Origin: Scolanthus callimorphus
Taxonomy: Eukaryota > Cnidaria > Anthozoa > Actiniaria > Edwardsiidae
Assembly (NCBI GenBank): GCA_033964015.1
Contig: CM066919.1
Span: 26,184,204 to 26,248,203, forward strand
DNA length: 64,000 bases
Direction: 5' to 3'
A program made the translations under genes and the position numbers. Shown in pieces: positions 48,001 to 60,000 of the stretch. The notes beneath the pieces were generated by a model. That model was not told where the DNA came from and ran no database searches. It saw only the letters and a program-made list of their open reading frames with translations. The first letter of the stretch is position 1. Each line of letters opens with the position of its first letter.

Positions 48001-51000
48001 GCCGACCTGTGATTTATACCAAGGTGAAAGGAAGCAAGAAGAAAATCAAGAGAATTCCCTTGGACCCTGCAAGTCTTGCCTCCACAGATAACGGTAAATA
48101 TCGAGAAAATTGCAAGAAAGTTCGTTGAGGAAAGAGTTGTGGAATAACAAACTTGTCGCGTTTGTTGTGGGAAAACCGCTGATTTGCAATCGAGGGCTCA
48201 AAAGTGCGCCGACGAGAATCAGTGGGGGGGGGGGGATGATCGGGGATGATCGTCGTATCTTTTAGGGGTTAAAATCGCGGTGGTTTGGTCTCTTTTAGGG
48301 GTGATCTTGATCTTCAATAAATTTTAGGGAGTTTGGTATCTTTTAGGGCCCAAACTGTGTCCAAAATGTTTTTTCTCATGATGGTGCTTCTAAAAACCGT
48401 GTAAGATTATTCGATGAGAAGACGATAAATTAGAAACAACACAGAAATTTCTTGATAAAGATACCAGGGTATCTTTCACCTGTTACCTATAATAATAATA
48501 ATACTAATAATAATAATAATAATAATAATAATAATAATAATAATAATAATAATAATAATAATAATAATAATAATAATAATAATAATAATAATAATAATAA
48601 TAATAATAATAATAATAATAATAATAATAATAATAATAATAATAATAATAATGGTTTAATAGCAGTACTTCCACTAGGTGGCTCTTCGCCTACTATATCT
48701 ATGTTAAAATCAATAAATTGAGAACTATATATATACTAATATACTAATAAAATGGTAGAATAAAAAGAAAATTAAATATATAAAAATATAAATATGTTAT
48801 AATAATGCTACATTTTATATATATACTAGTATTTACAGGCATTTGCGCGCATTAGATCAAAGTAAAGACCTTAAAGAGAGAGGGAATAATTTAAGAAAAG
48901 AGATCTTTAATTTTCGCAATAAAGAGTCCATCGTGGCTGGCAGTTTATTAAAGGAGGTTGCTGCCTGGTCTTGGAAGGTATTTGTCTCTTTTTTAGTAGG
49001 AATTCTAGCTTAGGAGCAGTAAGAGACCTTAGTTACCTGTGTCCTTCGCGCCTACTTGGCACATACGACCTCATCTTTTAGGGAATCTTTTAGGGTAATA
49101 AATTTTTTGAGCCACGCCATGGCCCGCAAACTAGTCCAGTCCCTGAACTCTCCTTCGCGGCTCCGTTGTTTCCGTTGTTTCCTTCGGCGACCACAGGCAA
49201 CAACGGAGCCGCGAAGGAGAGTTCAGGGACTGGACTAGGGTGAAACTGAACATTTCCGACGATCATCCCCGACCAAAAAATATGGGAGTCCCTACTCCAA
49301 AGGGGGGGGAGGGTGGAACGGTGCTTTGGCTTGATTTCTCGCTTTAATATTTGTCAGCCTTGTAAATCCAATGTTTCATTTAACGTTTTGTAATCTTTTT
49401 CGTCTCTGCTTGCAGTGCCATACGATTCCAGCAAGCCGTTCATATGGGTAGACTACCTACAAGCCTGCAATGCCAAGGCCGTCCCTGTCAGCGTATTCCA
49501 ACAAGAAAACCCCGAACTAAACATGTTCCCCAAACCGTGTCAAGAATTCAAGAAAGACATGAAGCTTGAAGCAGTCGATCCTAAACACCCTTCGTATATC
49601 TGCGTATGTACGATTGTACGAGTGAAGGGCGCGCGACTTCGGCTTCACTTCGACGGATGGTCGGAAAGTTACGACTTCTGGACGAACGCCGACTCACCGT
49701 TCATATATCCGGTTGGCTGGTGTGAAAAACATGGACAAAGTCTCAGTCCTCCGAGGGGTAAGTATGTCATATTTTATCAAAGACAGAAACTGAGTTTGGA
49801 CCCTTGGTGACTACCAACCCAGGAAGTCAGGGGTTGAATTTTTTGGAAGAAAAAGGGGAGTTCGGGACTAAAATAAAAAGAGGGTATTATTATGTGGGTA
49901 TTATTTTTGAACTAAACGCCTGATTCAAACGTGTCGTTCCAGGAATCCCTAAAACAGAGTTTAACTGGGAAACATATCTGAGCAGACAACAAGCGACAGG
50001 TGCTCCAAGTCATCTGTTTAAACCGGTAAGGAATATGACGGGCAGGCCTCCGTGAAAGCTTCACACTTCAACCAGAAGACAATTAATTGAGTGTTTTTAA
50101 TGCGCAATGCGCCAACAACGGCGCACATGTAATAGAGCGGATTTCAGATGACTGTCGTGAGTAATTCGCAATACTTTGTAATTACTCCTATAGGTTTTAT
50201 TCAGAATTGGTGTAATTACTTTGCGATAGGTTTACTACAGTCATATGAAAACCGCTCTAATCTGTAAATAGTCAAACTATTCTTGGTTTTCACTTGTCAC
50301 GTGACGAAATTTATTTCTCTAAATTAAATTCTAAACACTTGATGGCTAATAGAATTATAAAGAATATACAAAATCATGTTTCCTGGGTAAATTTTAGGCC
50401 GATTGGGCACTTTCCAAGCGAGATATTAGCAAGTGAATGTGCGCCATTTTGTACAGTAATTGTATGGAGCCGCCATGTTGGAGCCCCAGTAGAGGGGCTC
50501 CATAATGGCGGCCAATTAATCGGGTCTCCAAACGACACTATTTTCAATCCAAATTATAAGAATAGTATCAGAATGGTAAAATATAACTTTTATAACATAC
50601 TGACTTGTCAAAAAGGTAAGAACGGTGCAAATCGAGTGAAATACGGCAAGTTCAAAATACGTGACTGGTGTTGCGTGACATAAATAGCTTTGGCGATATC
50701 TCGAGAACTACTTGGCAGAAGGTGCCGAAATTTCGTGTGACAAATCCTTGAATAGAGTTATATTCGTCACAGAAAAGAAATATCTGTAGGTCTCTTGGTT
50801 TAGAAGTTAGCTTTTTGATGACGTCACATGAAAACGAGAATTAACGAGTTCACACCTTCTTACTCTGTGCAATCCACAGGTATCCCAAACCAGACACGCC
50901 TACAAGGTCGGGATGAAGCTGGAGGCAATCGACCGTAGTAGTAATGCATGTGGTTTAGATTACGGTTTGGTCAACGACGTTTCCAAAAATTTTGGCAACG

Positions 51001-57000: not shown

Positions 57001-60000
57001 AATGCCCAGTACTTAGCGTTGTTTCGAAGTCCCGGCGACCGGAAACAAATAGGGATTGTAGCCGAACGTATGTTTGATAGAAATCGGGAACGTTTTATGA
57101 ACGCTTATCTCAAAGAAACAGAAAACGCATACGGTTACATCTTGGTAGATAACAAACCAGATACCCCAGCACACAAGCAAGTACTGGCCGATATTTTTGG
57201 TAGTTGTAAAGTGTATGCTATAGAAAAAAGTACCATGGGGAATAACGAGCAATCTCACAATGAGTTGACGCACATTACTACGATTCAACAACCTCCAAAT
57301 AAGCGCGCGAGGTCAGAACCGTGCTGGGAATTCCACCAATAATTTGGTCAGATGCACCGCCGCACGTATGGCAAGAGGCTGTAGGATTTGACAATAAACC
57401 TATGAATACTATTCCTGACGGCTACTACATAGCCGAAATGTACAAGTCCTCGCGCAATCAAGTTCTTCCTGGCACATCTGCTTGCAACGCAGGGAATGGA
57501 AAGACCTGGTGGCCTGTCAAACTAAAACACATCGAAACTGGTGCTACAAAAGTTGTTGGACTCTACCCTGATGAACCTACTGTAAAACAATTTCTCCGTG
57601 ACTCGTTCGATTTACTGTGGCCGAGAATGAACGCAAAGGTAGATTTCTAATCGCTTCAAAACAGAACAAAAATGAACTGTGTTAGGCTAACATAGGTTAA
57701 CCGGTGTGTATAAAAAGGGTCCCGAACTTATTGTAATGTTTGTATAGTTATTAAATAAAAGACGCTAAAAAGAAACAAAGAACAACGCTGTCTATTATAA
57801 ACAAACAAAATGACCAACATCATGGATTAGCTTTCTTAATTAACACACGCTTGACTCGAACATCATTTATCATATTCGCTCTATATGTAAGACGCGGAAA
57901 TTAACTATACTATAACTACACTATACTCAGATAAGAGTCGTCGAATTAGGATAAAAAAAAAATTGTAAAAAAAACTTTCAATAACGATTTTAGTAACCAA
58001 AGACAACTTTGCCAACAGTAATATCTGTTTTCTTTTTATCAGGCGTAAACTCCTGATGTGTACTCTAATCTGTCCTTGAAAATGATTCTCAGCAGCATTG
58101 TATCCCCGAGATCCTAGCTTGTATTTGACTACCATTGTTTTGATAAAATAAAACGACCTTGTGCGTCTTTTAGAGTGGAAAAGGACCTAGTGCGTCATTT
58201 TTTAGTTAAAGAAAGCGCCTAAAACAAAGTAATTATTTGTTATTCGTCCCTATACACAAACTGTTTTCTAGAATTTATCTCGTGAGATCGATTATCATTA
58301 GTTGTGTAGAGTTGAATTTTCCAAAACGTTTAGTATTGTTTCGTTAAAGAGAAGGAGTGATGAAAACACACGCGTTCGGCTTTTATCGCACTGTAGTTTA
58401 TGAATAAAGTCATCCATATTCAGGCAAATTCCCTTCTTGATCGGAATTGAAGGATTCCCGTCGCCGCCTAGCATAAATTCGCGTATATGAAACTTTGCTT
58501 TGCCAGCAAACAGACACGTGGACGCAAAATAATCTGACTGATTTCTTTTGCCAAGTTTGTACAGAACTTCGCCATTTCTTTCATGAACACTAGGGTTAGA
58601 CATAGTAGAGCTGTAGTAGAGTAGAGTTTAGTATGTTTCGTTAAAGAGTACGAGTGCTGAAAACACACGCGCTAGGCTTTTATCGTACTGTAGTTTATGA
58701 ATAATTAAAATAACGGTTGTTTGAATCACGTGTCACGTCAATCAAGCGTTACCGTTGCCAAAAATGAATCTCGTTGCCAAATTTTTGGAAACGTCGTTGA
58801 CCAAACCGTAATCTAAACCACATGCATTACTACTGACCGTAAGAACCCGGATCTCATCTGCGTTGCCACGGTAACCAACGTCATTGGCAACCGATTCCTT
58901 GTTCATTTCGATGAATGGGATGACACGTATGATTACTGGTGCGAAGAGGATTGCCCTTATATTCACCCGATAGGATGGTGCACGGCGCAGGGCGGGAAAC
59001 TGAATCCGCCCAACGGTAAGTTGGTAACCCAAGTTCTATTGTCAACACTGTGTTCATACCCACCTGTTTAATTAATGTTCATCCGTCCGTTCGTCCGTCT
59101 CTCTCATGGGTACAATCGGTTACAGCTCATATACTCTCCTTGCCCTAAGGCTGTTTTAGAGGCGTTCAAGAGATACTACCACGCATTATTATCCAACTGC
59201 AACGACAGGAGTAAAATATCGCAGGAGTGAGACTGGGGCAAGTACAAATATCCCGCGATATTGTACACTTAACTTCTTAACTATTTTCACTAAGTTCGTC
59301 CATTCTCATTTCAAAACAGCAGAAAATAGAATGTCGGATAATAAATAACTTATTAGACATTTGAATGTACAATCTCTAAACATTTTTTCTCGTCTTTGTA
59401 TTTTTGTCTCACCCGAAGACGGGCTCCAGACTCGAGAAACATATTCAGCGATATTGTACATTAAAATGTCCAAAGTTATATATTACCTTTCGAAATCTAC
59501 TACCAATAACTGGGTTTCTATCTTTTACTGGGAAACCGATGGAGCTCGATCGACATCTTCAAGAAACCGCAACTTTCGAGCACTATTTCTAAATTTCGAA
59601 CTTTTTTCGGAAAATTCGAGCATTTTGGCGATTTTTCAGCGCAGTCGGGACAAGCCTAGTAGTGGTAACCATAGCGACACCTTCATGTTTCTGCTTCTTT
59701 AGATGACGAGGTGGATACATTTCAGTGGGACGAGTATCTCGAGAAGACAAACTCCGTCGCGGCCGCGCCAGAACTTTTCAAGAAGGTGAGTGGACATTGG
59801 AGCTATAGAAGTTATTGTAACCTCAGTTTTAACTCACGAATATGGGAAACATTGAAACGAGTGGCCGTGATGATGTCACTCACTCACTCCGCTTGAACGT
59901 AACCTCGACCAAGGGCGATAGGATCAGTTGGTCTAAAGACTTTTTAACTTGTGAATATGCGAAGTATAGAAACGAGTTATATTGTGAAGGGGTGCGATGT

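Follow-up and report, generated by a model that had tools for sequence, protein, structure and literature searches.

Instability is usual for long perfect palindromes, which are commonly regarded as by-products. Adenovirus end duplications and the deletion forms of linear yeast plasmids are palindromic defective genomes of protein-primed replicons, and the repair of adenovirus ends by panhandles, together with the palindromic deletion forms of linear plasmids, provides models for a route of copying. Models for arm-to-arm conversion within chromosomes are found in sex-chromosome palindromes and Foldback-type transposons. Mavericks (Polintons) have the termini (AGT)2//(ACT)2 and 6-bp target-site duplications, and intact vertebrate Mavericks measure 12.7-24.6 kb with inverted repeats of 46-1,447 bp (PMC8097293). 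Invertron plasmids are described as linear molecules with large terminal inverted repeats and a terminal protein acting as primer, for which snap-back or panhandle intermediates have been proposed (PMC1864894). Here, we describe an element in a 64,000-nucleotide stretch of the sea anemone Scolanthus callimorphus (C9:26184204-26248203 in an assembly whose 302 contigs total 596.8 Mb; hereafter, the window) that is palindromic over its whole length of about 7.9 kb. It very likely represents a palindromic Polinton-derived lineage whose arms are reset between insertions. The best explanation overall, and a probable one, is that the window holds a young copy of a multi-copy, non-autonomous Polinton (Maverick)-derived lineage in which the entire genome of ~7.9 kb is a palindrome.

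Structure and insertion of the palindromic element

A BLAST search of the stretch against itself reversed aligned positions 50937-58834 with their own reverse complement at 99.75% identity over 7,904 columns, confirming the near-perfect palindrome with mirrored arms of ~3.93 kb that the initial annotation had described. The left arm (50937..54868, + strand) starts with AGTAGT and the right arm (54903..58834, - strand) finishes with ACTACT. As had also been proposed, the outer ends coincide with a 6-bp target-site duplication, GACCGT, which is present on both flanks (50931..50936 and 58835..58840, no strand). The few arm-specific differences mentioned in the annotation amount to five places outside the central 34 bp. 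At four of these a short run differs in length by one base, and the fifth is a substitution at 52683, where the left arm of the window has T and all 36 other arms covering the site have C. The asymmetric core at the axis (54869..54902, no strand) folds on as an imperfect hairpin with a bulge, one mismatch and a loop of 7 nt. Thus, the spacer lies within the 34 bp given as its upper bound, but is in truth smaller, as the stem continues to the 7-nt loop.

When one copy of GACCGT is removed, the host flanks join into an uninterrupted MBT-repeat reading (MKLEAIDRKNPDLICVATVTNV...), and the insertion therefore splits a coding exon of an MBT-domain host gene. The portion of this exon ahead of the insertion lies at 50832..50936 (+ strand) and the exon resumes at 58841, with a further MBT domain just upstream of the insertion. 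Among the 25 longest of the 31 inverted-repeat pairs in the window, the palindrome is by far the longest, the arms of those outside the element measuring at most 131 nt. Two short hairpin-like inverted repeats, at 28476-28674 and 785-1092 (arms of 91 and 117 nt), are unrelated to it. No Rfam match was found within 50000-60000.

Copies across the genome

A genome search with the left arm, in which 20 of 745 first-look candidates, the best matches to this arm, were scored, gave 61 matches. Including the window, these give 20 arm loci on 14 contigs, and the sequences of the other 19 were compared with it. All 20 are palindromic, containing the arm in both orientations around one centre. The initial annotation, which had suggested looking for the lone arm and for other palindromic copies, had considered a head-to-head dimer, an integrated hairpin-type replication intermediate and a lineage that lives as a palindrome; with 20 of 20 matched loci palindromic, the last of these is the one supported. 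One arm is interrupted or shortened in L015, L016, L018, L019, L021, L022 and L023. L015 and L016 are one insertion that was duplicated later, so the 20 loci correspond to 19 insertions. A second search, using a 224-bp terminal repeat as query (74 matches, 40 scored of 71 candidates), revealed a 21st palindromic locus, L039, in which one arm is partly missing and which has its own duplication, CACTAC, as well as a further member, L038, that was read on one side only.

Both ends are visible in 16 of the 20 arm loci, and each of these starts with AGTAGT, finishes with ACTACT and lies between perfect 6-bp duplications; in L015, L016, L021 and L023 the left end lies outside the analysed stretch, and the right end of L015/L016 is without the ACTACT motif. 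When L039 is included, all 17 copies with both ends visible carry perfect and mutually different 6-bp duplications together with AGTAGT/ACTACT. The flanks of the 14 copies compared have no sequence in common at an expectation value (E) of 1e-10, the one match joining the two flanks of L017 to each other.

Two of the loci lie in unusual surroundings. L024 sits in a satellite-like array, on C8 near 17841600-17842800 and 17853000-17855000 (L028 and L029), whose repeat unit measures ~120 bp. In L021 (C2:2049101-2088491), the left arm is seemingly interrupted by ~31 kb, judging from the positions of terminal repeats, and this interruption holds a polymerase B open frame at 2059160-2060665.

Arm likeness within and between copies

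The comparison of arms counted substitutions only and covered 38 arms that had 1,500 or more usable columns, the left arms of L021 and L027 being too short to be included. It excluded the tandem array as well as the final 150 bp before the centre. Within a copy, the two arms differ by 0-0.81% (median 0.11%, 18 copies), whereas arms of different copies differ by 0-4.97% (median 1.82%, for the 677 of 685 pairs with more than 1,000 shared columns). That the halves of each copy are nearly identical suggests that both were copied from one at each move. For 15 of the 18 copies, a branch of the maximum likelihood tree (IQ-TREE) has both arms on the same side; nine of these groupings are strongly supported, and the exceptions are the window copy, which has neighbours at zero distance, and L015/L016. 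Traced on this tree, the element label changes 20 times against a minimum of 19, and none of 200 shuffled labelings came as low (mean 32.9).

The terminal 40 bp occur in several versions among the copies, yet the two ends of one copy are identical in 13 of 16. The remaining three, L025, L013 and L027, have 1, 3 and 15 ungapped mismatches between their own ends, respectively, and those of L013 and L027 look like length shifts of one or two bases. L010 has an interior of the window clade and, at both ends, the terminal ~16 bp of another version, a symmetric exchange of ends.

Ordinary double-stranded replication, followed by arm-to-arm gene conversion in the chromosome, could also equalise the arms. 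All 18 two-arm copies have near-identical arms, as conversion would predict, and long inverted arms are good substrates for it. This explanation is nevertheless unlikely in view of L015 and L016, which are separated by 20.9 kb on C6 and share 99.78% identity across 8,677 columns. In the tree, their left arms pair with each other (100/95), as do their right arms (96/87), the left arms sharing changes absent from the right arms and vice versa. The arm differences therefore predate the duplication and have not been erased since, which does not fit a steady conversion between arms. Furthermore, L022, L023 and L025 retain arm differences of 0.38-0.81%. Identity at insertion followed by drift, as in long terminal repeats (LTRs), fits L015/L016.

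Centres of the palindromes

The core of the window element recurs at other loci: L009 and L012 have it in the same direction, L010 and L013 have it reversed, and L011 has a shortened form. Another core is common to L019 and L022, with a shorter form in L017; further cores are common to L014 and L023, and to L015, L016, L018, L020 and L021. L026 and L027, which have the longest arms, have a common core as well, and the cores of L024 and L025 differ. Since cores are common to different insertions, the palindrome is inherited and not remade, and its axis is one that has shifted several times. A description of the centre types as clade-specific was dropped, because two types cross the arm tree.

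Six ACCAATCA boxes within 54809..54962 of the window face the axis, starting at 54809, 54840 and 54871 on the + strand and at 54894, 54924 and 54955 on the - strand, with a spacing of 30-31 bp within each arm. CCAATCA boxes facing the axis, with at least one pair 29-31 bp apart, are present in each of the 20 loci. The boxes may reflect a spacing of the NF-Y type, a foldback primer site, or both. They may conceivably also be promoter elements that point to a gene lost at the centre. Tentatively, the L022-type core may derive from a deletion across the axis of a longer-armed ancestor, and the window-type core from a nascent strand that folded onto the neighbouring CCAAT unit 31 bp away and was copied onward. 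In the opposite direction, slippage may have occurred between 15-bp direct repeats that are found in the window-type centre.

Genes of the arms

Each arm of the window element encodes a PC4-like protein, which is often present in other arms of the lineage too, a packaging-type ATPase and an acidic helical protein, here named p181. The PC4-like open reading frame (ORF; 101 amino acids) lies at 51169..51474 (+ strand) in the left arm and at 58298..58603 (- strand) in the right arm. Its PC4 match is slightly below the Pfam cut-off, and the match of a 165-amino-acid relative in L031 is above it; no relative of the PC4-like protein was found at E 0.001, and the PC4 stretch is unaligned in L024, L026 and L027.

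The ATPase ORF (356 amino acids; 52429..53499, - strand, and 56272..57342, + strand) matches Pfam Pox_A32 above the cut-off, and all 21 aligned members also match this family. In both arms of the window the frame is broken ahead of the C-terminal domain, which lies in ORFs of its own at 52121..52507 (- strand) and 57321..57650 (+ strand). The earlier statement that every gene is carried twice stands, with this break in the ATPase present in both arms; at least one other copy has the frame uninterrupted, C-terminal domain included. The protein collection contains 716 relatives of the ATPase at E 0.001 (120 listed), and a Walker A motif is present in 111 of the 120 listed. Among the matches listed, two have organism names, and both are sea anemones, Actinostola and Exaiptasia. 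In the alignment of 21 sequences, C9, C12 and H28 of a CxxC...H...H stretch are invariant; a zinc-finger pattern was found in two of the 120 listed relatives, a count that is uninformative because the spacing of the pattern is too wide for the aligned stretch.

Between the ATPase and p181 lies an 11/22-bp tandem array (53578..53841 in the left arm, mirrored at ~55930-56193). The p181 ORF (181 amino acids) is at 53966..54511 (+ strand) and 55260..55805 (- strand), and has 14 relatives. Its predicted structure is all-helical, with a helical core at residues 51-160 (block predicted local distance difference test scores, pLDDT, of 84-95). The model has no fold match in the PDB at E 0.001; p181 itself matches no Pfam family above the cut-off, and the 15 members give only scattered weak matches.

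A Pfam scan of the 14 distinct ORFs of the window element found no match to a polymerase, including protein-primed DNA polymerase B, to a retroviral-type integrase or to a protease. No capsid match was found in these ORFs either, although capsid folds can escape sequence profiles, and none matched a transposase profile, for which the autonomous relatives were not searched. A search of viral contigs and prokaryotic genomes confirmed no relative.

Ratios of nonsynonymous to synonymous substitution rates (dN/dS) are 0.19-0.94 for the first 338 ATPase codons, with eight of ten comparisons at 0.2-0.6, 0.20-1.14 for p181 (ten comparisons) and 0.34-0.46 for PC4 (the four of ten comparisons with data), in pairs that share arms and are thus not independent. 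Segments without stops or frameshifts make up 24 of 37 arms for the ATPase, 28 of 38 for p181 and 24 of 28 for PC4. Many of the frame breaks are one-base gaps and could be sequencing errors. Taken together, the selection data provide modest evidence that the genes of the element matter.

Relation to Polintons and a candidate helper

The terminal 423 bp of the window element (50937..51359, + strand) match the PC4 end of the Polinton-type elements L031, L032, L036 and L037 at 97.4-98.6% identity, and it is this PC4 end that the window element carries as a copy on either side. The ends, the ATPase and the 6-bp duplication fit the assignment to Polintons in the initial annotation. Polymerase, integrase and capsid genes, however, are unrecognised in the window element, which is therefore a non-autonomous derivative of Polintons and not a complete one.

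A non-palindromic Polinton-type element of 17,268 bp, C5:7795058-7812325, has the same terminal sequence at both ends and is flanked by GAGAAG twice. The sequence covered consists of its two ends, 4.9 kb. One end contains a PC4 ORF (165 amino acids), and the other is 99.2% identical to L034, a stretch on C1 with a 363-amino-acid integrase ORF that has rve and chromodomain matches; about two thirds of this ORF fall within the C5 piece. The terminal repeat at the integrase end is 97.6% identical to the window arm over 169 bp. From its sequence, this element is a candidate helper. Across the genome, polymerase B (PF03175) has 169 matches, with 76 scored of 533 candidates, and many are in long open frames.

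The region C1:2913883-2945423 (L031-L035) contains, back to back, two stretches of Polinton type that have the same termini. The first includes an inverted copy of part of its own PC4 end ~8-10 kb away, cut at 2928200, and the second, which follows directly after 2928200, is ~17.2 kb long with integrase at one end and PC4 at the other. The possibility that the element at C1:2913883 is a Polinton end in the form of a larger palindrome was rejected, since the computed axis region is not palindromic.

The presence in the genome of Polinton-type elements with the same PC4-end sequence, and the fact that both ends of the window element copy that one end, would also agree with each palindrome being newly made from a non-palindromic parent by end duplication, on the model of the palindromic defective genomes of protein-primed viruses. 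As a general account this is improbable: cores common to different insertions are unexpected from separate origins, and in the 20 scored of 745 arm candidates the interior is never found joined to a non-palindromic element. End duplication may, however, account for how the lineage first arose. An assembly artefact, a concern already voiced in the initial annotation, or a library artefact, from missing-adapter or foldback reads, can be dismissed almost entirely, for although four of the five arm differences are one-base run-length differences typical of long-read errors, the palindrome is found at 21 loci on 14 contigs as independent copies, and each of the 17 two-ended ones stops exactly at its own, different target duplication.

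Proposed mode of copying

The resetting of the arms is well supported, and from it we infer a route of copying. The balance of the evidence leans towards copying by way of a hairpin or a foldback. Polymerase and integrase would be supplied in trans by full-length Polintons that have the same ends. During protein-primed replication, the displaced strand could fold into a hairpin of 3.9 kb whose single double-stranded end would be a replication origin, and synthesis from this end together with mismatch repair of the stem would derive both arms from one. Alternatively, a nascent strand could fold back at the central stem-loop, with the same outcome. By either route, the arms would be identical at birth and the core of the loop would remain asymmetric.

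Evenly poised, in our estimate, is the further proposal that the element is a self-perpetuating satellite of Polintons, a mobile and possibly packaged genome in the form of a self-complementary strand, of which one arm templates both in each round. Neither better nor worse placed is its corollary that genes and both ends would be reset together, the asymmetric central loop alone escaping.

Several observations weigh against the explanation as a whole. The evidence consists of integrated DNA alone, and no replicating hairpin or extrachromosomal form has been seen. By raw distance, the own partner arm is nearest in just 10 of 18 copies: L013 and the window copy tie at or near zero, L025 about ties, and for L009, L015, L016, L018 and L022 an arm of another copy is as near or nearer. 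Strong support is lacking for six of the 15 pairs of arms that the tree groups (for example, L018 with 66/42 and L013 with 81/0), and core types deviate from the arm tree, as L019 is not the sister of L017/L022, nor L026 of L027. Chromosomal gene conversion is countered by one duplication only, L015/L016. The 20 scored of 745 candidates are the best matches to one arm, so that farther non-palindromic copies may be missed, and L038 is covered on one side only. Finally, dN/dS is just moderately under 1 for the ATPase and p181, and 13 of 37 ATPase segments have a stop or frameshift.

Comparison with known systems

In a literature search judged by titles and the beginnings of abstracts, no paper on a palindromic Polinton lineage was found. 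The novelty lies in an entirely palindromic and heritable genome, which is combined with the known Polinton ends and, presumably, with mobilisation of the Polinton kind. Here, a mobile lineage with many insertions has a palindrome as its heritable form. If it is true that the arms start identical and then drift, every copy has a clock of its own, in the manner of LTRs. The pattern also provides natural evidence on how Polinton-type DNA replicates in animals, and points to the existence of Polinton satellites.

The element resembles Polintons/Mavericks in its AGTAGT//ACTACT ends, 6-bp target duplication and packaging-type ATPase, and in the terminal 423 bp shared with such elements in the same genome. 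Unlike in a Polinton, genes for a polymerase, an integrase, a protease or a capsid are not recognised in the window element. It also differs from intact vertebrate Mavericks in combining a length of 7.9 kb with inverted repeats of 3.9 kb, compared to 12.7-24.6 kb and 46-1,447 bp (PMC8097293). With invertron plasmids, it has in common a linear replicon with large terminal inverted repeats for which copying of the panhandle type has been proposed; these plasmids are mitochondrial, encode their own polymerases and, in the part of the account drawn upon, are not described as palindromic throughout (PMC1864894).

In the window element, the ends, the length of the duplication and the ATPase are of the Polinton type and no transposase is recognised, which sets it apart from Foldback and Galileo transposons. 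Those elements are similar in having very long inverted repeats that are alike within a copy. The palindromic defective genomes of protein-primed replicons are likewise similar, as one end is present twice around a central axis and hairpin or panhandle copying explains them. In contrast to these defective genomes, the palindrome described here is not a passing by-product, but a standing, integrating and diversified lineage.

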